Shown here: positions 5,339 to 16,527 of the stretch, piece by piece
How the letters are laid out: every line of letters starts with the position of its first letter
Numbering within the stretch: the stretch's first letter is position 1
Assembly (NCBI RefSeq): GCF_019634845.1
Contig: NZ_JAHCAQ010000016.1
Coordinates: forward strand, 1 to 64,000
Origin: Dokdonella sp.
GTDB taxonomy: Bacteria; Pseudomonadota; Gammaproteobacteria; Xanthomonadales; Rhodanobacteraceae
Direction: 5' to 3'
DNA length: 64,000 nt
The notes under the pieces: generated by a model
The model's input: only the letters and a program-made list of their open reading frames with translations
The model's database searches: none
What the model was told of the DNA's origin: nothing
Position numbers and translations under genes: made by a program

Positions 5339-6472
5339 CTACTCGAAGCCGTCGTAGAAGATGAGGTCGAGCGCGGCGCCCGCCTCGACCGCGCCACTGT
5401 CGCAACCGTTGCCGGCGGGCCGCCCGCCGCCGCGCTGGTCGACCGACAGCACGCATTGCGCGTTCGGGATGCGGTTGATTGCGGCGCTGGTGTTGCCCGG
5501 CATGCGGGTCCAGGTCGGGCCGCCATTGTTGGCGAGCGCGCCGAGCATCGGATTGCCGGCACCGTCGCCGGTGGCCGACAGCGCGCATGAGGTCGAACCC
5601 GCCCACACGTTGTAGCCACCCGAAGTCAGCATGCCGTCGCAGTTGCCATTGGCATTGTTGGCGATGATCGAGCGACTGACGAACAGGGCGCCATTGGCGC
5701 TGTAGAAGCCACCACCAAAGGTCCCGCCGGAATTGTCGGCGATCGTCACGTGGACGAGGCTGCCGGCGTCGCTGCTGTCGACGTAGATGGCGCCGCCGCC
5801 CGAACTCGAGGCGGTGGCGCGGTTGCCGCTGAAGGTGGAATTGCTCACGTTGAGCGTCGAAGTACTGTAGATCGCGCCGCCGCCGGTGGTGGCGGTGTTG
5901 TTGCTGAAGGTGCTGAAGCGGATCGTCGCCGGCCCGCCATCGTTGAGGATCGCGCCGCCGTGGCCGCTGCTGCCGGCGCCGTTGTTGGTGTTGTCGGCAA
6001 ACGTGCTTGCCTCGACCACGAGGCTGTTCTGGTTGAGCAACGGCGCGGCGCCCGAGATGTTGTTGCGCACGGTCACTTCACGCAGGCGCAGGCTGCCGAA
6101 GTTCTCGAGCATGTGCCCGCCATTGAACACGCCGTGCTGCAGCGTCAGGCGCCGGAGCGTGACGTTGGCGCTGGCGTAGATCTGGAACAGCGCCGACGTG
6201 CCACCGCCGTCGAGCGTGATGCTGCCGCCGCCGTCGATGACCACCGCATGCGCAATCGCCTTGCGGTTGGTGAACACGATCGTCGCGGTGCCGCAATTGA
6301 AGGTGATCGTGCCGCCGCCGCTGCCATCGACGGCAGCGAGCACGCTGTCGAAGCCAGCCTGGTTGCAGTTGCCCGGACCGACCACGCCGTTGGCGGCCCA
6401 GGCCGGCAGCGCAAAGGCAGCGGCCATGCAGGCCGTGCCGCGGATGAGGATGTTCGCCGTCGTGCCACGCAT
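5339..6472 (-). CDS. Secreted right-handed beta-helix protein with C-terminal DGFE tail
   Basis: A 377-residue exported protein. After a signal peptide (about 1-26, AWA-AN) it consists of repeating short strands rich in N, S, G and T ('GGGGTITFNCG', 'NNTATTGGGAIYSTSTLNVS', 'SNSTFSGNRA'), the pattern of polymorphic-outer-membrane-like parallel beta-helix passenger proteins. The extreme C-terminus is D-L-I-F-Y-D-G-F-E, almost the same tail as the unrelated CAP protein at 8884-9969. The start at 6472 is fixed by a strong GGGAGG ribosome-binding site 7 bases upstream; an ATG 27 bases earlier has none. Binding target and location are unknown. No catalytic residues were recognised. Confidence 0.8.
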   Translation of the reverse strand: MRGTTANILIRGTACMAAAFALPAWAANGVVGPGNCNQAGFDSVLAAVDGSGGGTITFNCGTATIVFTNRKAIAHAVVIDGGGSITLDGGGTSALFQIYASANVTLRRLTLQHGVFNGGHMLENFGSLRLREVTVRNNISGAAPLLNQNSLVVEASTFADNTNNGAGSSGHGGAILNDGGPATIRFSTFSNNTATTGGGAIYSTSTLNVSNSTFSGNRATASSSGGGAIYVDSSDAGSLVHVTIADNSGGTFGGGFYSANGALFVSRSIIANNANGNCDGMLTSGGYNVWAGSTSCALSATGDGAGNPMLGALANNGGPTWTRMPGNTSAAINRIPNAQCVLSVDQRGGGRPAGNGCDSGAVEAGAALDLIFYDGFE

Positions 6473-6577
6473 GTCACCACCTCCCTCTGTTGGTTGCATG
6501 CGACGACCCGATCATCGCATCGAGTCAGGTAACGCCAAACGGCGACCAGACACGCCATCGCCGCGATGTCGGCGCGC

Positions 6578-7396
6578 TCAGCGCGTCGGCCGCTGCCGCT
6601 CCTCGGCCTTGGCCGCGTCCCACAGCGCATCCTGCTCGGCCAGCGTCCGCTCGCCCAGCGCCTGGCCTGACGCCACGGCCAGCGCCTCCATGCGGCGGAA
6701 CCGCCGCTCGAACTTCGCGTTGGCGTGGCGCAACGCCTGCGAGAAATCGACCTTGGCGTGGCGCGCCAGGTTGACGCAGACAAACAGCACATCGCCGACT
6801 TCGTCGGTCAGGCGCTCGGCATCGGCGCCGGCCGCGAACTCGCACCGCACTTCCTCGATCTCCTCACCGAGCTTGGCCAGCACGGGGCCAACCTCGGGCC
6901 AGTCGAAACCGACCCGCGCCGCCTTCTGCTGCAACTTCAGCGCGCGCTGCCACTCGGGCAGGCCGCGCGCGATGCCGGCCAGCGCGCTGTCGTCGGCGTC
7001 ACCCTTGTCGGCGCGCTCGGCTGCCTTGAGCGCATCCCAGGCCCGGGTCTGGGCCGCCGCCGAGTCGAAGCGGGCCGCGCCGAACACGTGCGGGTGGCGC
7101 CGCACGAGCTTGTCGCAGATGGCCGCCACCACGTCGGCGAACCCGAAGTGGCCGGCCTCCTCGGCCATGCGCGCATGGAACACCACCTGCAGCAGCAGGT
7201 CGCCCAGTTCGTCGCGCAGGTCGGCGTAATCCTTGCGGTCGATCGCATCGGCGACCTCGTAGGCCTCCTCGATCGTGTACGGCGCAATGGTGTCGAAATC
7301 CTGCTCGACGTCCCACGGGCAGCCATGCTCGCGATCGCGCAGGCGCGCCATGATCGCCAGCAGGTCGTCGATGCTGCGTCCAGGGGGCGTGTCCAT
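6578..7396 (-). CDS. mazG: Nucleoside triphosphate pyrophosphohydrolase MazG
   Basis: A 272-residue house-cleaning enzyme that hydrolyses (d)NTPs to monophosphates and pyrophosphate and, in E. coli, lowers ppGpp. Two tandem MazG domains are visible. The first carries E43-E44-x2-E47 and E63-x2-D66 in 'TIEEAYEVADAID...DELGDLLLQ'; the second carries 'KLGEEIEEV' and 'DEVGDVLF'. The length agrees with E. coli MazG (263). The ATG at 7396 lies 4 bases beyond the cysQ stop, so it is the third gene of nudE-cysQ-mazG, an operon of nucleotide-sanitising enzymes. Confidence 0.95.
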   Translation of the reverse strand: MDTPPGRSIDDLLAIMARLRDREHGCPWDVEQDFDTIAPYTIEEAYEVADAIDRKDYADLRDELGDLLLQVVFHARMAEEAGHFGFADVVAAICDKLVRRHPHVFGAARFDSAAAQTRAWDALKAAERADKGDADDSALAGIARGLPEWQRALKLQQKAARVGFDWPEVGPVLAKLGEEIEEVRCEFAAGADAERLTDEVGDVLFVCVNLARHAKVDFSQALRHANAKFERRFRRMEALAVASGQALGERTLAEQDALWDAAKAEERQRPTR

Positions 7397-7400
7397 CGCA

Positions 7401-8212
<812 letters not shown>

Positions 8213-8216
<4 letters not shown>

Positions 8217-8773
8217 GGCTGCGGCTGGTAGCGACCCGCGAGGTACTCGCGCGCCATGAACAGCGCCGCGATCGAACGACCGTCGCTGACTTCGGGATGC
8301 TCGAGCAGCGTGTGCAGCTGCGACAGGCGCCAGGGCACCACGTCGAGCGGTTCGGGCTCGTCGCCTTCGAGTCGCTCGGGATAGAGCTCGCGCGCAAGCA
8401 CCACCTGGGTCAGCGCCGTCATGTAGCCGGGCGACACCGCCAGCGTGCCGAGCACGTGCAGCTCGCGCGCGCCGTAGCCGATCTCTTCCTTGAGTTCGCG
8501 ATTGGCCCCCTGCACCGCGATCTCGTCGCGATCGAGCCGGCCCTTGACGAGACCGAGCTCGTAACGGTCCACACCGACCGCATACTCGCGCACCAGCAAT
8601 GCGGTGTCCTCGTCGCGCAGCGGCACCACGATGACGGCGCCGAGGCCCGAACTTAGCAGGCGCTCGAAGCTGCGTTGCTGGCCGTTGGAGAACTGCAGGT
8701 CGACCTGCTCGGCGCGCAGGAATCGGCTGCTCGGCAATGGCCGCGTGGCGAGGATCCGGGGAGGCGTGCGCAT
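8213..8773 (-). CDS. nudE: ADP compounds hydrolase NudE (Nudix)
   Basis: A 186-residue Nudix hydrolase acting on ADP-ribose, Ap3A and NADH-type dinucleotides. A full Nudix box G-x5-E-x7-R-E-x2-E-E-x-G runs from G78 to G99 ('GRLDRDEIAVQGANRELKEE' and on), and 'VSPGYMTALTQVVLARELYP' follows as in NudE. It is the first gene of the nudE-cysQ-mazG operon. No Shine-Dalgarno is seen before the ATG at 8773; instead a TAGAAT hexamer ends six bases upstream, so the mRNA may be leaderless. Confidence 0.93.
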
Positions 8774-8779
8774 CGCTGC

Positions 8780-8785
8780 ATTCTA
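8780..8785 (-). promoter_or_regulatory. TAGAAT -10 element placed for a leaderless nudE mRNA
   Basis: TAGAAT on the minus strand (8785-8780) is followed by six bases and then the nudE ATG, so a start seven bases after the -10 box would fall on the A of the ATG. No clear -35 is present. The nnr gene has the same arrangement. Confidence 0.4.
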
Positions 8786-8883
8786 GCCTGCCCGCCGCCC
8801 GCCGGCCGCCATGCTGGACGATCCCGTCGATTCTTGGCAGCCTCGCCGCGAGATGCGTCACCTGCGGCAGGCGGAGACAGTTC

Positions 8884-9969
8884 ATGTCAGGCAAATCAAC
8901 ACTTCCCTCCCGCAGCCTCGTGACCCTCGTCATGGGGGCGGCCTTTTGCGCGCTGCACGCGCAGCAGTTGCCCGAGCTGGGTCCGGCGCCGCGCCTGCAA
9001 GTGGACGCGGTTCCGCAACGGCTCGCGCAGCCGCAACCGGTGGCGCCGGCCGCGGTCAGCTTCAATCCGCTCAACCGCAACGAGGTCGCGCTGGCCTACC
9101 AGAACATCTTCGTGCCGCAGCTCGTGCCCAGCGGCTGGAATGGCAACGTGGGCAGCTGCAATCCCGGCACCACGAGCGCCGCCTACCACCAGGCCACGAT
9201 CGACCGCGTCAACTATTTCCGCGTCCAGGCCGGCCTGCCCGGCAACGTCACGATCTTCAACGGCAGCGAGCCAGCCGGCACGCAGGCCGCCGCGCTGATC
9301 TACAGCGCACAGCACGCGCTCAGCCACGATCCGCCATCGAACTGGGCCTGCTGGACGCAAGCGGGTCACGACGCCGCGGCCAAGTCCAACATCGCGCTCA
9401 GCTACGGCAGCGACACGGCGGCCGGGCCCAACGCGGTCGTCATGTACATGGACGATCCGGGCAGCGGCAACGGCATGGCCGGCCACCGCCGCTGGCTGCT
9501 GTATCCACCGCAAGCGCAGATGGCCTCGGGCTCGATTCCGTACAACCCGCAGTGGGCCGCCAACGCACTGTGGGTGCTGGGTCCGTTCGGCAGCCGGCCG
9601 GCGACGCCCGACGGCGTGGCCTGGCCGCCGCGCGGCTACGTCCCCTGGCAAGTGTTGCCGAAGACGTCCAACCGTTGGTCGTTCTCATGGCAGGGCGCCA
9701 ACTTCAGCGCCGCCACCGTCAGCATGACGCGCAATGGTGTGCCGCTTGGCGCGCCGACCTACGAAACGATCGCCAACGGCTACGGCGACAACACCCTGGT
9801 GTGGCTGCCGCAGGGCGTCACCTATGTGCAGCCCGCAGCCGACGTGACCTACCACGTCACGATCAGCGGCATCAGCGGTGGCGGCGCACCGTCGACGATC
9901 AGCTACGACGTCATCGTGATCGACCCCTACGCGCCCGGCGACCTGATCTTCGACAACGGCTTCGATTGA
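8884..9969 (+). CDS. Secreted CAP/SCP-domain protein with C-terminal NGFD tail
   Basis: A 361-residue exported protein. The signal peptide is about residues 1-26. A CAP (SCP/PR-1/YkwD-like) domain runs from about 100 to 210: 'DRVNYFRVQAGLPG', 'AAALIYSAQHALSH', and 'MAGHRRWLLYPP' with H201, matching the helix-H-x-R-W-L-L core of bacterial CAP proteins. The remaining third is beta-rich and may be an Ig-like module. The protein ends G-D-L-I-F-D-N-G-F-D, nearly the tail of the beta-helix protein at 5339-6472. The start ATG at 8884 has no strong ribosome-binding site, but it begins the signal peptide. Bacterial CAP proteins have no agreed activity. Confidence 0.82.
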   Translation: MSGKSTLPSRSLVTLVMGAAFCALHAQQLPELGPAPRLQVDAVPQRLAQPQPVAPAAVSFNPLNRNEVALAYQNIFVPQLVPSGWNGNVGSCNPGTTSAAYHQATIDRVNYFRVQAGLPGNVTIFNGSEPAGTQAAALIYSAQHALSHDPPSNWACWTQAGHDAAAKSNIALSYGSDTAAGPNAVVMYMDDPGSGNGMAGHRRWLLYPPQAQMASGSIPYNPQWAANALWVLGPFGSRPATPDGVAWPPRGYVPWQVLPKTSNRWSFSWQGANFSAATVSMTRNGVPLGAPTYETIANGYGDNTLVWLPQGVTYVQPAADVTYHVTISGISGGGAPSTISYDVIVIDPYAPGDLIFDNGFD

Positions 9970-10824: not shown

Positions 10825-11595
10825 TCAGTGCCCCGCCGGCAGGACGCCCTGCACGCGCACGAGTCTGGAACCGTCGGGCTGCGGCTCGCCGATGCCGCCC
10901 AGCAGCTCCTGGGTCTGCGCATCGGCATTGCGCGCGCGCAAGATCGCTTCGGCTTCGTAAGCGGGCAGGCGCAGGCGAAAGGTTCCGTCCACGGCCAGCG
11001 TGCCGCTGGCATCGTCCTTGAAGCTGCCGACGATCGAGCCGTCGGCCTGGCTGGCGAAGTCGCCGGCGAGAGCGCCCAGATGCAGCTCGCCGCGCGGCGT
11101 GCGCACGCCGACGTCACTCCAGCGCGCCGTGCCGGCCACCTGGCGCAGGTCGATGCCGGCCAGCGAGGCATGCCCGAGCGTGCCGGCCAGCGTGCCCTGC
11201 AACTGCACGTCGCCGGCGGCGAACAGCCGCTCGAACCTTGCCGCCGGCACGCTGAAGCGCAGGTCCTGCAGCTCGAACCGACTCGCACCCAGTCGCTCGA
11301 CCTGCCCCGCCAGCTCGACCTCACCGCCTTCGATGCGCAGATCGACCATCGGCTTGCCGGCCAGCAACGGCCACTTGGGCAGCTGCCAGTGGAGCCTGCC
11401 AAGGTCGCGGCCGAGCAGGCTGATGCCGTCGGCATGGCCATCCCACAGCGTGCCCTCGATCCCGTTCAGATGCAGTGCCGGCACGCGCACCTGCAGGTAT
11501 TGCCAGGCCACGCGGGCCGGCAGTCGCCACAGATACACGCCGGCCGCGACGAGGACGAACACGCAGGCAACGAGCAGGAGTTTGAACACGCGCAT
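10825..11595 (-). CDS. gspN: Type II secretion system protein N
   Basis: A 256-residue single-pass inner-membrane protein (membrane helix about 5-23) with a long periplasmic part rich in 'GTLWDGHADG', 'GEVELAGQVERLG' and 'LQGTLAGTLGHASLAGIDL' strands, as in GspN/PulN/XpsN. GspN is an accessory T2SS component found in Xanthomonas, Klebsiella and Pseudomonas systems. It is the last gsp gene of this block, 81 bases after gspM and one base before the phosphatase gene. Confidence 0.88.
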   Translation of the reverse strand: MRVFKLLLVACVFVLVAAGVYLWRLPARVAWQYLQVRVPALHLNGIEGTLWDGHADGISLLGRDLGRLHWQLPKWPLLAGKPMVDLRIEGGEVELAGQVERLGASRFELQDLRFSVPAARFERLFAAGDVQLQGTLAGTLGHASLAGIDLRQVAGTARWSDVGVRTPRGELHLGALAGDFASQADGSIVGSFKDDASGTLAVDGTFRLRLPAYEAEAILRARNADAQTQELLGGIGEPQPDGSRLVRVQGVLPAGH

Positions 11596-11676: not shown

Positions 11677-12168
11677 TCATGGCGCGTCCTGCAGCGTGAT
11701 GCGCGCATTGACGAGACCCGCGCCGTCGGCGCGGTCGGCGCTCAGCTCGCTGGTCTGCACGCCATAACCGCTGGCGAGCAGTTCCAGCCATTGCACCAGC
11801 GCATCGAACTGCACGGCTTCGAAACTGAGTTTGACGTGGCGCGCGCCGGCCGGCTCGACCTGGCGCAGCGCGGCGCCGAGGCCGGCATCGCGCGCACTGG
11901 TGTCGGCCAGCGCCAGCAGCGACTTGCCGGCGCGGTCGCCGCGTGCACGCTGCGCCGTGCCGTGCTGCTGTGCGAGCTGCGCCGCCGCGCGCTGCACGCG
12001 GGCCAGTTCATCGCGACCGGCAACCAGGTCCTGTTCGAGCAGGGCGCGGCGCTGCGCCAGCGGGTGCCAGACGAGCGCCCACACGAGCAGCAACGCGACC
12101 ACGGCGGCGCCCCAACGCAGCGTGCGGCGGTCGCGCTCGGATTGCGCCTGCCACCAATGGCCGATCAT
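11677..12168 (-). CDS. gspM: Type II secretion system protein M
   Basis: A 163-residue bitopic inner-membrane protein. A short cytoplasmic N-terminus (1-17) precedes a membrane helix (about 18-35), a coiled-coil rich in A, Q and R, and a C-terminal ferredoxin-like domain ('HVKLSFEAVQFDALVQWL'), the GspM layout. GspM pairs with GspL in the assembly platform. Start ATGA at 12165-12168 overlaps the gspL stop, indicating coupled translation. Confidence 0.88.
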   Translation of the reverse strand: MIGHWWQAQSERDRRTLRWGAAVVALLLVWALVWHPLAQRRALLEQDLVAGRDELARVQRAAAQLAQQHGTAQRARGDRAGKSLLALADTSARDAGLGAALRQVEPAGARHVKLSFEAVQFDALVQWLELLASGYGVQTSELSADRADGAGLVNARITLQDAP

Positions 12169-13361
12169 GGCGCCGCCGCCTTGCCGGCAGCGGCATCGAC
12201 GCGAACGCGGCCATCGATGCCGTCGGCACCCGGATTGGCGGCGGTCAGCTCGGCCTTGCAGCCGGGCAGCATGCCGATGCGTTCGCGCACGAGGTCGAGC
12301 GCGTTGACATCGGGTGCGTGCAAGCTCAGCTCAAGCACCCCGTTGCGATAGTCGAGCGCGCGCAACTGCACCTGGCTCGGACTGCTCGCCAGCACCGGCC
12401 CGATGCGCTCGAGCACGGCCAGCGCGCCGCCCGCGCCAGCGCCGTCGCTGCGACCGAGGCGCGACTGCACGAGCTGCAGCGGCGTGAGGCGATCGAACAC
12501 GCCCGCATCGAGCTCGGGCAACGCCGCCTGCACGGCCTCGCGCGCGGCGGCATCGACCCGCTTCACCGCGCGCGACAACTGCCACACCTGGGCCGCCAGC
12601 GCGAACACCGCGAGCGCAGCCACGCCCGCCGCCAGCAGCGCAGCGCGGCGCCACCAGCGCGCACCATCGTTGCGCCGCCGTCGCGACGACGCGAACGCGC
12701 CATCGAGCAGATTGAGCGGCGCCGGGCCCAACCCGGCGGCGAGCCACGCCAGCGCATCGCCGGCGCGCTCGCGATAGGCCGCCACCGCGGTCGACAAGGC
12801 CAGGCGCGGCGCCGCACGGCAATCGTGGACGCTGAGCGCGGGCAGCGGCGCAAGCTCGGCCAGGACACCCGGCAGTTCAGCCAGACTGCAGGCCAGAGCC
12901 GACCAGGTGGCCGGGCGCAGCGTCGCGCGCTCGGCCTCGAGCAGCAGCGCGGCAGTGGCGGGCTCGACCGGCAATGCCAGCGTGTCGGGCAGCACCACGT
13001 CGGCCGCGATGCCGGCCGCGGCGAGCTGGTCGAGCCAGCGCGCAAGCGTGTCGCGGGCGACCACGGCGACACCGACGCGGCCCTCGTGCGGCGTCGCCAC
13101 CGCGAAATGCAGGTTTTCCACCGGCGCCAGCAGCAAATCCTCGACCGCGTAGGGCACCGCCTTGAGCAACTGCGCGCGGTTGCGCGCGGTCAAGGTCACT
13201 TCGGTCAGCAGCACCTCGGTGCCCGGCACCAGCACCACCACCTCGCCCGCGCGCGCCAGCACCGCTGCCGGCGGCACCCCGACCTCGGCCCGCGCGGCAC
13301 CCGCGGCCAGCCAGTGCAGGCTGCCGTCGGGGGCAAGGCGCAGGAACAGTCGGTCGGACAT
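12165..13361 (-). CDS. gspL: Type II secretion system protein L
   Basis: A 398-residue assembly-platform protein that recruits the ATPase GspE to the membrane. The N-terminal cytoplasmic actin-like domain ('LLTEVTLTARNRAQLLKAVP', 'PYAVEDLLLAPVENLHFAV') is followed by a membrane helix at about 238-258 and a periplasmic ferredoxin-like domain. Domain order and length match GspL. GspE is not encoded in the window. It lies 66 bases after gspK and overlaps gspM by four bases. Confidence 0.9.
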   Translation of the reverse strand: MSDRLFLRLAPDGSLHWLAAGAARAEVGVPPAAVLARAGEVVVLVPGTEVLLTEVTLTARNRAQLLKAVPYAVEDLLLAPVENLHFAVATPHEGRVGVAVVARDTLARWLDQLAAAGIAADVVLPDTLALPVEPATAALLLEAERATLRPATWSALACSLAELPGVLAELAPLPALSVHDCRAAPRLALSTAVAAYRERAGDALAWLAAGLGPAPLNLLDGAFASSRRRRNDGARWWRRAALLAAGVAALAVFALAAQVWQLSRAVKRVDAAAREAVQAALPELDAGVFDRLTPLQLVQSRLGRSDGAGAGGALAVLERIGPVLASSPSQVQLRALDYRNGVLELSLHAPDVNALDLVRERIGMLPGCKAELTAANPGADGIDGRVRVDAAAGKAAAP

Positions 13362-13427: not shown

Positions 13428-14417
13428 TCAGGGCGGGTCCGGCACCAGCGCGACCGCAGCCACCAGGGCTTCGTCGGCACCGCTGCTGCGCTGTACGGCA
13501 ATGACGCGCCCGCCGCGTTGCAGCAGCACGCTGAACACCGTGAACGGCAGATCGTCGAGCACGATGTCGCCGCGCGCGAGAAAGGCGTCGCTGTGGACGT
13601 CGACGAGCGCGGCCAGCCCGGGCGGCGCGCTGCCCAGCGGCGTGGCGCGCCAGAAGCTCGGCGCATCGCTCCACTGCGCCCGCCCGTTCTGCCACAACTG
13701 CTGGCCCAAGGCCGCAGTGGCCGGCGCCGTGCCGCTGCCGGCCAGCGCCTGCAGCACGGCCGCGCTGGCGGTATTGGCATTGAGCCGCGAACCCGGTGGC
13801 AGCACGCACACATGCGGCGCCAGTCGCGCGTAGACCACCGCATCGACACCGCGCACGAGGCGCAGCTCCGACACGTGCGTGAACAGACCGCCGTGGGCGC
13901 GGTAGGGCACCGCCCCGCCGAGGTAGGCGCTGGCCGCCGGTGCCGCGTCCGGATCGGGATCGAGCCACTGCGCGACCGCCTCGCCCAGTCGCGGCTCGAG
14001 CGCCAGCGCGGCGAGCAGCCGCGTGAACAGCTCGCGCCACTGCGTCGCCTGGCCGGGCGCGAGGTTGTTGAGGTTGAAGCAGCCGTTGAGATCGCGCAGC
14101 GTCGCCGTGAGCCTGCCGCCCGGTACGTCCTGCAGCGGCAGCGGCTGCGCCCAGCGACTCAGGTGCGTGTCGGGGCCATCGCGCGGCAGCATGAGTGCCT
14201 CGATCGCGTAGGCCTCCAGGCCCTGAGCGTACGCCTGCACCTGCTCGGCGCGCAGCGCGTTGCGTGTGCGGGCCAGGGCCAGTTCGCCGCGATCGAGCAG
14301 CGCGGCGACGAGGATCGTCGCCAGCGCGACCACGAGCAGGGCGACCACCAGCGCGACACCGCGCTCGGCCTTGCCGCAGCAGCGCGCCAAACGGCGGCGG
14401 CCCGTTGCCGTCAGCAT
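13428..14417 (-). CDS. gspK: Type II secretion minor pseudopilin K
   Basis: A 329-residue minor pseudopilin that caps the pseudopilus tip with GspI and GspJ. The prepilin peptidase site is G20-V21 in 'ERGVALVVALLVV'; as is usual for GspK the mature residue 5 is not glutamate. A large inserted domain includes 'DLNGCFNLNNLA' and 'RLNANTASAAVLQALA', both hallmarks of GspK. The ATG at 14417 overlaps the end of gspJ by seven bases; a longer frame upstream is antisense-like and rejected. Confidence 0.9.
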   Translation of the reverse strand: MLTATGRRRLARCCGKAERGVALVVALLVVALATILVAALLDRGELALARTRNALRAEQVQAYAQGLEAYAIEALMLPRDGPDTHLSRWAQPLPLQDVPGGRLTATLRDLNGCFNLNNLAPGQATQWRELFTRLLAALALEPRLGEAVAQWLDPDPDAAPAASAYLGGAVPYRAHGGLFTHVSELRLVRGVDAVVYARLAPHVCVLPPGSRLNANTASAAVLQALAGSGTAPATAALGQQLWQNGRAQWSDAPSFWRATPLGSAPPGLAALVDVHSDAFLARGDIVLDDLPFTVFSVLLQRGGRVIAVQRSSGADEALVAAVALVPDPP

Positions 14418-15181
14418 GGCTGCCCGTCCCAGCGCGCGCGGCAGGGCGCGGGCTCGGGCAGTTCGACGATGCGGCGGATCTCGCCCAGTTCGGGCGGCGC
14501 GATGCGCACTTCCACCGCACGCGGCAACTGGCTCAGCGCAGCGGCCTCGCGCTGGCACGGCAGCAATTCGCGCGGCGGCCAGCTCTCGCGCCAGGCGCGA
14601 TCGCAGCCCAGGTAGCGCAGACGCAAGCCACCGGCGCGCGGCAGCAGTTCGCGCCGCAGCGGCGCGCTGCCGGGCGCGCGGTCGAGCGCCGCATAGCGCC
14701 CTTCCTGCAGCCCGCCATCGACCAGCGCGAACACGACCCGCTGCAGGTTGCTGCGCGGCTCGGCCAGCGGGTTGGCAAACCCGACCCGCGTGAACTCGAC
14801 CTGGTCGGCGCTGCCGATGAACGCAGGCAGCAGGCGACCATCATTGCCGCGCACCGCGCGGCCGGCAGCCTGGCGCAGCGCGCCGCTGAGCGTGCCCACG
14901 GCGCGCTGCACCTGGGCGAAACGGTCCTGCTCGGCCGCCAGCGCGCCACGCGTGTGCGCGATCGAGGCGAGGCTGCCATAGGCGGCCGCGGCAACCAGCG
15001 CGAAGATCGCCACGGCGACGACGAGCTCGAGCAGGCTGAAGCCGCTGGCCGACCGGCCTCGGCCGGCGCGGCGATACGACAGCGCGCAGCGGCGCGCGAT
15101 GCCGGGCGTTGCGCGCCACGACGGCACCTGCCGGTGCCGAGCGGCGACGATCAAATCGGACCGGTGCCCGCTTCCGATCAC
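14411..15181 (-). CDS. gspJ: Type II secretion minor pseudopilin J
   Basis: The pseudopilin signature 'SGFSLLELVVAVAIFALVAA' and the rest of the chain match GspJ. There is no ATG near the leader. A GTG at 15181 overlapping the gspI stop (GTGA) is proposed as start, giving 256 residues but a long 47-residue leader; a GTG at 15127 would give a more usual leader of about 29 residues. The downstream boundary overlaps gspK. The product forms the pseudopilus tip with GspI and GspK. Confidence 0.8.
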   Translation of the reverse strand: MIGSGHRSDLIVAARHRQVPSWRATPGIARRCALSYRRAGRGRSASGFSLLELVVAVAIFALVAAAAYGSLASIAHTRGALAAEQDRFAQVQRAVGTLSGALRQAAGRAVRGNDGRLLPAFIGSADQVEFTRVGFANPLAEPRSNLQRVVFALVDGGLQEGRYAALDRAPGSAPLRRELLPRAGGLRLRYLGCDRAWRESWPPRELLPCQREAAALSQLPRAVEVRIAPPELGEIRRIVELPEPAPCRARWDGQPC

Positions 15182-15558
15182 GGCTCGGCCTCGCTGCGAA
15201 ACCCGCGCAGGCTGGCCGACGGGGCCTGCGCACTGCCGGCGAACACGGTGATGTCGATGCGCACGATGCCGGGCGTCGGCGTCGCCTGCACCTCGCGCTG
15301 CCAGCGCCACTGCCGCGCGCCCAGCTCGACGCGCCCATCGCTGCGCCCCGGCGCCGGCAGTTGCGGCGCCAGCCGCGTGTCGGCGAGCACGTTGGCGGCG
15401 ACCCAGCCAGCCAGTGCGCGCTCGCGCAGCGCATCGAAATCGGCGACCTGCAGGCTGGCGGCGCGAGCCAGCGCAAGCAGTGCGATGGCGATCACGACCA
15501 GCGCGATCAGCACTTCGAGCAGGGTGAAGCCGCGGCGCGGCGCGGCGCGCGCGTTCAC
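15178..15558 (-). CDS. gspI: Type II secretion minor pseudopilin I
   Basis: A 126-residue pseudopilin with a 10-residue basic leader and processing site G10-F11 in 'RRGFTLLEVLIALVVIAIAL', glutamate at mature position 5. The size and the order H-I-J identify it as GspI, the nucleus of the tip complex. It overlaps gspH by four bases (ATGA at 15555-15558). Confidence 0.9.
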   Translation of the reverse strand: MNARAAPRRGFTLLEVLIALVVIAIALLALARAASLQVADFDALRERALAGWVAANVLADTRLAPQLPAPGRSDGRVELGARQWRWQREVQATPTPGIVRIDITVFAGSAQAPSASLRGFRSEAEP

Positions 15559-16067
15559 GGCGCCACGCTCACGACACCGTCGGCGCTGCCGAGCAGGCGC
15601 CGCTGCAGCGCCGGCTCGCCCAGTCGCAGCGTGAGCGTGAACGGCGTGAGCTCACCCGAGGAGAAGCACACCACCTGCGGCACGCGCGCGGCGACGCCAC
15701 CGAGCGCGAGCACGCGGCCGTCGCGTTCGAGCGTCACGCGCAGGCCGGTCGGCCAGGCGCGATCGCGCAGTTCATCGTTGCGGCCAAAGCCTTGCCAGCG
15801 GTCGCCGTCGAGACGTGCGAAGGCATAGCCCTCGCCGCCGAGCGCGACACCGATCTCGCGGCCAGCCAACTCGGCCTCGTCGCAGGCATGCGCGAGTCGT
15901 GCGCGGAACTGGGCGGCACTGTCGTCGAGCTGGCGCTCGGCGTTGCCGCCCACGGCCAGGGTGAGCACCACCGCGAGCACGGCCACGATCGCCACCACCA
16001 CGAGGATTTCGAGCAGCGTGAAACCGTTGCTGGCGCTACGCAGGCGTGACCGCTGCAGGACCGCCAT
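15555..16067 (-). CDS. gspH: Type II secretion minor pseudopilin H
   Basis: A 170-residue pseudopilin, leader ending G15-F16 in 'SNGFTLLEILVVVAIVAVLA'. The globular part has the GspH/FimT pattern ('LRVTLERDGRVLALGG', 'VVCFSSGELTPFTLTL'). The ATG at 16067 lies 13 bases after the gspG stop. It links the pseudopilus shaft made of GspG to the tip complex. Confidence 0.9.
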   Translation of the reverse strand: MAVLQRSRLRSASNGFTLLEILVVVAIVAVLAVVLTLAVGGNAERQLDDSAAQFRARLAHACDEAELAGREIGVALGGEGYAFARLDGDRWQGFGRNDELRDRAWPTGLRVTLERDGRVLALGGVAARVPQVVCFSSGELTPFTLTLRLGEPALQRRLLGSADGVVSVAP

Positions 16068-16080
16068 GGCCGCGCGCCGC

Positions 16081-16527
16081 CTACTCCCAGTTGCCGACGT
16101 CGGCGGCTTCGCCCTCGCCGCCTGGCTTGCCGTCGGCACCGAGGCTGTAGACGTCGAACTCGCCATGCTGGCCCGGCTGCACGTACTGGTAGGGCCGGCC
16201 CCACGGATCCTTGGGCACGCTGCGCGACTGCAGGTAGGGGCCCTTCCAGTTCGGCGCATCGGGCTGGCCGCCGGGCTTGGCGATGAGCGCATCGAGCCCC
16301 TGCTCGGTCGACGGATAGACGAAGTTGTCGAGCTTGTAGAGGTTGAGTGCACTGACGATGCTGGAGATGTCCTGGTGCGCCTTGACGATGCGCGCCTCGC
16401 CCGGTCGATCCATCACGCGCGGCACCACGATCGCGGCAAGGATGCCGAGGATGACGACCACGACGAGGATCTCGATCAGCGTGAAACCGCGCGCAGCAGC
16501 GCGGCGGGAAATCGGTGGATGGCGCAT
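16081..16527 (-). CDS. gspG: Type II secretion major pseudopilin G
   Basis: A 148-residue major pseudopilin. The processing site is G14-F15 in 'RGFTLIEILVVVVILGILAA'. The calcium-loop region includes 'NWKGPYLQSRSVPKDPWGRP' and 'YSLGADGKPGGEGEAADVGN', diagnostic for GspG. It is the first gene of gspG-H-I-J-K-L-M-N; the start lies only 45 bases from the divergent bioA start, with a TATGAT -10-like box on the minus strand at 16565-16560. gspE and gspF, which precede gspG in Xanthomonas xps, are absent here. Confidence 0.95.
   Translation of the reverse strand: MRHPPISRRAAARGFTLIEILVVVVILGILAAIVVPRVMDRPGEARIVKAHQDISSIVSALNLYKLDNFVYPSTEQGLDALIAKPGGQPDAPNWKGPYLQSRSVPKDPWGRPYQYVQPGQHGEFDVYSLGADGKPGGEGEAADVGNWE

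Follow-up and report, generated by a model that had tools for sequence, protein, structure and literature searches.

MYXO-CTERM, PEP-CTERM and the C-terminal domains of the type IX secretion system (T9SS) are sorting suffixes, which also occur on choice-of-anchor proteins. MYXO-CTERM is presented as such in the accessible text of PMC11980579. A further suffix, GlyGly-CTERM, consists of a Gly motif, a hydrophobic region and a basic end and is paired with a rhomboid protease. According to the accessible part of a 2011 study (PMC3237569), it co-occurs with the type II secretion system (T2SS) in general, and no evidence for a particular T2SS subclass is given there; GlyGly-CTERM and rhombosortase are also covered in PMC6219818 and PMC13393428. 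As for the T2SS, its substrates are described in the excerpts of PMC10128026 as having no common sequence and their recognition as unresolved, and recent work is said there to favour signals in flexible or unstructured regions. The portion of PMC12369372 at hand describes a universal linear T2SS signal as lacking and reports PDZ-dependent information in one substrate; the PDZ domain of GspC helps to recognise some substrates. In this study, we examined a nine-residue tail shared by two exported proteins encoded in a 64,000-nucleotide stretch of a Dokdonella sp. genome (contig NZ_JAHCAQ010000016.1, positions 1 to 64,000; hereafter, the window). The tail was found on many unrelated exported proteins of this genome and, across the order, co-occurred with one clade of the T2SS secretin, designated GspD-A.

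The first protein (5339–6472, minus strand, 377 residues) ends in AALDLIFYDGFE immediately before the stop codon, and its tail, DLIFYDGFE, occupies the nine codons at 5342–5368. The second (8884–9969, plus strand, 361 residues) ends in APGDLIFDNGFD and a stop codon, with the tail DLIFDNGFD in the nine codons at 9940–9966. Both proteins and both tails had been pointed out in an earlier sequence-only reading of the window, and they were found at the same positions with the same ends. In the first, the beta-helix protein, the NCBIfam model choice_anch_Q matched residues 316–373 of the 386-residue reading (start at 6499) with an E value of 6.7e-18, directly before the tail, and POMP repeats were matched as well. 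The predicted structure of this protein (AlphaFold) was fair, with a mean predicted local distance difference test (pLDDT) score of 67.6, and residues 361–377, which include the tail, had pLDDT values below 50 and were modelled without secondary structure. For the CAP domain assigned to the second protein, no match was obtained with Pfam at E 0.1, with NCBIfam at E 1 or with a PDB profile search at E 1, and we use the name CAP-like for its resemblance alone. Its model, built from four sequences, had a mean pLDDT of 43 and was too poor for use. Among 151 genomes, this protein had three good homologues besides itself; those in G031 and G088 end in the tail, and that in the tail-free G018 ends in a different segment.

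The window contained two matches to [FLIMV]-F-x-x-G-F-[DE], compared with 0.01 expected from 100 shuffles. When the whole genome (3.26 Mb, 27 contigs) was searched with this pattern, 91 sites were observed, whereas the reversed-pattern control gave one. Omission of the residue preceding the first F yielded 117 sites (control, 9), and F-x-x-G-F-[DE] with an immediate stop codon yielded 17 (control, 0). Rarity of the tail, named in the sequence-only reading as a refuting outcome, was not observed. We read 90 distinct open reading frames (ORFs) around these matches; six failed the strict motif, one of which (L056) looks like a genuine N-terminal case, and 84 strict proteins were left. The consensus was D-x-[ILV]-F-x-[DN]-G-F-[DE]. 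In the 90 ORFs, D stood at -2 in 74; the hydrophobic position was I in 70, L in 11 and V in 7 (88 together); the residue before G was D in 42, N in 33 (75 together) and S in 9; and the end was D in 59 and E in 31. The counts of 90 for each of F, G and F were fixed by the search pattern. Throughout these ORFs the nine residues had an acidic end, with no hydrophobic helix and no basic end or arginine cluster, in agreement with what had been read from the two window proteins.

The position of the tail was less uniform than its sequence. Of the 84 strict sites, 58 lay 0–6 residues from the stop codon, six lay at 7–25 residues and 20 lay further away. At least six of these 20 (L055, L086, L100, L114, L115 and L121) stand just behind a signal peptide, as judged by eye, and others lie between domains. 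Tandem tails were observed at the C-termini of L148 and L237. The tail is not strictly C-terminal as first described. Chance or composition as its origin was ruled out by the reversed-pattern controls. A mobile DNA repeat was also ruled out: the tail codons varied, the bases after the stop codon were nearly unconserved in the 58 C-terminal cases (at most 0.47 bits), and in AT-rich genomes and other families identical residues were written with other codons, for example GATTTAATTTTTAATGATGGCTTTGA in G098. The tail is real and systematic.

Subsequently, the proteins carrying the tail were characterized. A simple heuristic assigned a signal-peptide-like start to 46 of 59 motif ORFs, namely those that passed a filter for gene-likeness and had both ends inside a stretch, and to 60 of the 176 ORFs in their neighbourhood (odds ratio 6.8, p 4e-9). 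The tail is accordingly enriched among exported proteins, which the sequence-only reading had proposed as a test. The heuristic missed 11 strict proteins, and all five of these that were read (L057, L074, L084, L101 and L070) show a signal peptide by eye. Two clear signals of the twin-arginine translocation (Tat) type were found on L064 and L235 (RRDFLK and RRQFLR), and a lipobox-like start was seen in only one of the 84 tailed proteins. The general secretory (Sec) or Tat signal peptide that is expected of a T2SS substrate is accordingly present on tailed proteins, by heuristic and by eye.

The C-terminal parts of the 84 proteins matched 55 NCBIfam and 56 Pfam families, and no common fold upstream of the tail was found among them. 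The leading families were choice-of-anchor Q (11) and choice-of-anchor D (5); choice-of-anchor J, S8, M36, M28, M9 and astacin peptidases, endonuclease I, GH44, Lcl_C and LapA were among the families listed. The M36 models matched were named for rhombosortase, myxosortase or T9SS, and LPXTG also appeared among the anchor-named models. One tailed protein matched NCBIfam LapA, and LapA is termed type II-dependent in the title of a reference within PMC12239567. Another matched Pfam Phage_sheath_1 (E 3.7e-15). A permissive search of the 84 proteins against NCBIfam and Pfam (E up to 10) brought up no tail model among the first 25 families listed per library (of 84 and of 120); the models matching most proteins were domains or repeats, reaching 13 of the 84 at best. 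A PDB search with a tail-like peptide gave weak unrelated matches only. These results agree with the earlier view that the tail belongs to neither domain, and its spread over unrelated folds argues against its being the last strand of a shared domain.

Like GlyGly-CTERM, the tail is appended to numerous exported proteins of a single genome that are otherwise unrelated, an arrangement of many tags to one system. It differs in consisting of nine residues without a helix and in occurring also at N-terminal and internal positions; the Gly-rich motif, hydrophobic helix and basic C-terminal end of GlyGly-CTERM were not found in the tails of the 90 ORFs. MYXO-CTERM, PEP-CTERM and T9SS suffixes are all longer, being helix-containing or a whole beta domain. 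No folded C-terminal beta domain of the T9SS type was seen in the two window proteins, whose nine-residue tags were modelled with low confidence (the CAP-like model being poor as a whole). A literature search for the tail or for a linear T2SS signal returned no description within its coverage, which left out preprints and most subscription papers. The tail is undescribed as far as this search reached, and it is a member of none of the tested tag families.

The distribution of the tail was examined with the tight pattern D-x-h-F-x-[DN]-G-F-[DE] in 369 genomes of the class, the level of the wider sampling, and in 299 genomes of the order. In the class sample, 25 genomes had any match, of which the window's genome had 65, one member of its family had 24 and the rest had one or two, and the reversed control matched six genomes among those listed; tail-rich genomes were confined to the window's family. 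In the order sample, 115 of 299 genomes had matches. The window's genus had 65–167 sites per genome, genus g4 had 36–56, and 27 of 33 genomes of family f9 had 17 or more. Leaving aside g1, g2, g4 and g14, the 65 remaining members of the window's family had 0–1 sites, as did family f2 except for G091 (10) and G601 (12). The pattern undercounts genomes such as G005, in which the first D is often not kept. A scan of named sequences matched at least 116 stretches; Marinicella, Dokdonella, Rudaea, Pseudofulvimonas and many uncultured Lysobacterales were among the matches listed, as were metagenome bins recorded, with labels left unchecked, as Alcanivoracaceae, Chromatiales and Alphaproteobacteria. 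One match, L221, reads through a stop codon and was discarded as chance. In a viral collection, four stretches matched the tail with a stop codon: in L336 and L338 a clear tail closes an ORF, the site in L337 falls in a frame that is very short, and that in L339 is internal and chance-like. The tail is concentrated in one order and patchy within it.

This patchiness was compared with the distribution of type II secretion genes. The window's genome has two type II systems, represented by clusters with GspD-A (contig C6) and GspD-B (contig C2). In a gspD family search of 52 chosen genomes, most tail-rich genomes had two kinds of secretin and tail-free genomes usually had one. Among the 18 tail-free genomes of this set, 16 still had a secretin over the cut-off, so the missing tails are not explained by a complete lack of T2SS. 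When the C6 secretin was used as the query against the 299 order genomes, the result was nearly bimodal, and GspD-A was scored present in 118 genomes and absent in 181, with 20 intermediate matches counted as absent. Two or more tails were found in 82 of the 118 genomes with GspD-A versus 9 of the 181 without it. Within single families the same was observed, with 11 of 13 versus 0 of 63 in f1 and 2 of 2 versus 0 of 76 in f2. In a tree of 40 secretins, the GspD-A copies formed one clade (29 rows, support 96/95), and the intermediate f2 secretins, the G639 secretin and secretin B fell outside it. GlyGly-CTERM is tied to no T2SS subclass in the accessible text on it, whereas the present tail tracks one secretin clade.

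Taken together, these findings lead us to favour, by a modest degree, the interpretation that the tail is a position-tolerant, portable linear tag on Sec- or Tat-exported proteins that is handled at the outer membrane by T2SS-A, which comprises gspC-D-E-F at the C6 locus and gspG-N in the window. A nonapeptide on dozens of unrelated exported proteins may be an address label for sorting or export. The tag would be laid out as D, then I-F, a turn of x-[DN]-G, and F-[DE], and would be placed in an unfolded terminus or linker. Such a placement would allow a periplasmic or outer-membrane part of T2SS-A to read the tag on any fold, and the reading would promote export through GspD-A, surface retention, or both. 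Our inference extends to the hairpin shape, to a protein that reads the tag, to the regulation and to the role in export or retention. A flexible or unstructured location is also favoured for the T2SS signals in the excerpts cited above, and the GspC-A of this genome likewise has a PDZ domain (Pfam). The signals described there are conformational and differ between substrates, whereas here one linear sequence is carried by dozens of proteins. A bolder proposal is that the tail is the first linear, transferable T2SS recognition sequence, active at either terminus or in a linker, which recruits folded Sec/Tat proteins to one secretin clade, with the machine and some of its cargo under a shared sigma factor-kinase switch; we regard this as tentative. 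If the tag is tied to one secretin clade, it would make T2SS substrate recognition directly testable, given that each genome of genera g1 and g4 has 36–167 sites. Even as an anchor only, it would be a sorting signal for which no library model was found, and annotation of exported proteins would gain from it in Dokdonella, Rudaea, Marinicella and many uncultured relatives, little-studied soil and marine bacteria.

Several observations weigh against a role of T2SS-A. GspD-A is not sufficient, because 36 of the 118 genomes with it had fewer than two tails, 27 of them in family f10; GspD-A was present in 39 of 43 f10 genomes, and only 12 of these 39 had two or more tails. In a search for a variant tail in this tail-poor family, the looser pattern [FLIMV]FxxGF[DE] gave 19, 8 and 17 sites in the f10 genomes G009, G037 and G058 versus 2, 3 and 4 in the control, and the f10 loci read, which for G009 and G037 were L294, L295, L306 and L307, contained no typical tail. 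Nor is GspD-A strictly necessary, since nine genomes without detected GspD-A had two or more tails. Several of these nine are fragmented drafts; G063, a member of f8, is 97% complete and is the clearest counterexample. Among its 46 sites, 14 were chosen for [DN]-G and read: nine end long frames within seven residues, and the remaining reads included one site in a 19-residue frame and one behind a signal peptide. In f8 as a whole, two or more tails were found in 3 of 7 genomes with GspD-A versus 3 of 32 without, with p 0.06 by a Fisher test, the values of which ignore shared ancestry. On a secretin B tree of 45 chosen genomes, used as a stand-in for the species tree, tails and GspD-A needed five changes each. 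Of five independent pairs of genomes differing in tails, four (three in some pairings) were concordant and none was opposite; the phylogeny-corrected p was 0.125 at best, and five pairs cannot reach 0.05. The C-terminal ends of GspC-A were similar and PDZ-like by eye in 12 loci, tail-rich and tail-poor alike, so a PDZ reader of the tail is possible and not indicated. Finally, the real partner could be another gene that was lost together with T2SS-A.

Among the other explanations is a surface-anchoring tag that, once T2SS-A or any other route has brought the protein out, docks non-covalently, in the manner of a miniature dockerin, on an outer-membrane or surface receptor, its link to T2SS-A being indirect. 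The G063 tails would fit such a tag. It fills the slot held by the anchors of other lineages, as seen in the choice-of-anchor proteins and in the M36 models with rhombosortase, myxosortase and T9SS in their names. Docking would also accommodate sites at the N-terminus, inside the protein and at the C-terminus, and the tandem copies suggest avidity. No receptor candidate was found among the recurrent neighbour families, and we consider such an anchor unlikely, though worth keeping in view. The many-to-one arrangement, the suffix position and the choice-of-anchor neighbours would also suit a C-terminal processing tag that a membrane protease or a sortase cleaves or transfers, as for GlyGly-CTERM and MYXO-CTERM. 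Lacking a hydrophobic helix and a basic end, and standing in some proteins behind signal peptides or between domains, where a C-terminal cut makes no sense, the tail is very improbable in this role. Rhombosortase showed no significant association with tails in either direction: TIGR03902 was over the cut-off in 16 of the 299 genomes, three of which had two or more tails (p 0.41), and it was not over the cut-off in the window's genome. It was rejected as the partner of the tail on both grounds. The co-occurring protease that the sequence-only reading had proposed to look for thus did not emerge, and the recurrent neighbours were a sigma factor-kinase pair and general genes. In the tail-free genome G594, a rhombosortase over the cut-off adjoins a GspD-A-like secretin (C47:20005-23331), as if another tag system had replaced the tail.

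The tail presumably resembles the start of jelly-roll-like domains, and it might be a leftover or mini-strand of such a domain beginning with hF-x-D-G-F-E-x-G, a fold remnant without function. A few longer forms do extend into GFE-x-G, and a C or W comes further on (L048, L097 and L102). Nothing follows the 58 of 84 strict sites that end within six residues, up to 167 tight-pattern sites in a genome are unlike decay, and no library model for the tail was present among the families listed, so a remnant seems highly unlikely. Known periplasmic degrons have hydrophobic ends, unlike the acidic end of the tail. A quality-control or stability signal that has no part in secretion and is read by a chaperone or protease of the periplasm would nevertheless be short, mostly terminal and outside the modelled fold, as the tail is; that the tail is patchy within the order and co-varies with a secretin fits export or sorting better, and this explanation is the one to which we would give the least credence. 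The layout of the T2SS genes and their neighbours bears on the portable tag proposed to be handled by T2SS-A.

A T2SS block had been noticed within 1 kb of the CAP-like gene, and this was correct: gspN ends at 10825, and one gene (frame from 9999, minus strand) lies between. The block lies entirely on the minus strand and comprises gspN (10825–11595; PF01203, E 1.8e-32), gspM (11677–12168; PF04612, E 2.7e-31), gspL (12165–13361; PF05134, E 3.4e-31), gspK (13428–14558; PF21687, E 1.6e-24), gspJ (14411–15310 for the open frame as listed; assigned by position and a prepilin-like N-terminus only), gspI (15178–15558; PF02501, E 8.1e-27), gspH (15555–16352 for the open frame as listed, with the true start inside; assigned by position and a prepilin motif only) and gspG for the major pseudopilin (16081–16527, coordinates derived from the frame; 42% to GspG of the other T2SS cluster). 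The C6 cluster has the order gspC-D-(PH-domain gene)-E-F, and separate gspD, F, G and K-like genes are present in the C2 cluster. Because C2 has its own counterparts, the window block was assigned by elimination to the C6 genes, that is, to T2SS-A. The PH-domain gene (PF10882; L246:10944-11432) between gspD and gspE was not found by tblastn in the other 14 GspD-A loci fetched. PF03934 (GspK) proved useless as a T2SS marker, because most places looked like helix-hairpin-helix proteins.

The link to type II export that had been suggested by this proximity was strengthened by the co-occurrence with one GspD clade and by a shared locus layout. Tails were also carried by proteins whose genes are not near a T2SS locus; the 15 GspD-A loci contained six tailed genes. 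These loci were chosen by gspD and not by tails. In 6 of the 13 GspD-A loci from tail-rich genomes, an extracytoplasmic function (ECF) sigma factor-Ser/Thr kinase pair (PF07638 and PF00069 in Pfam) flanks gspC and points away from it; these six are the loci of the window's genome, G110, G643, G031 and Marinicella G036 and G057, which belong to the window's genus, g4 and f9. In three of them (the window's genome, G110 and G643, all members of the window's genus), the sigma-kinase run starts with a tailed gene. The pair was absent from both tail-poor GspD-A loci and from the five GspD-B loci fetched. Counting against a general link, no such pair adjoined gspC in 7 of the 13 tail-rich loci, as far as the 20 kb stretches extended, and the frequency of such pairs elsewhere was gauged on small stretches only.

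Around the tailed genes themselves (194 loci), the kinase family recurred in 15 loci and the sigma factor in seven; no receptor or protease was seen there, and the other recurrent families were general metabolic or transport genes. By tblastn, both genes were present in 3 of 77 tail stretches of the window's genome and in 8 of 116 named tail stretches, and the 64-kb window contained neither. Our guess is that the pair might regulate T2SS-A together with tailed genes. A comparable case in Xanthomonas is EcfK-PknS, which serves a type VI system and in which, according to the accessible portion of PMC13147305, the kinase phosphorylates the ECF sigma factor. There as here, a PF07638 sigma factor stands beside a Hanks-type kinase next to secretion genes, whereas the pair described here lies beside the gspC gene of T2SS-A and beside certain tailed genes. 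In L210, L227, L237, L172 and other loci, sigma factor or kinase genes lie no more than about 150 bases from tailed genes, far from the T2SS loci.

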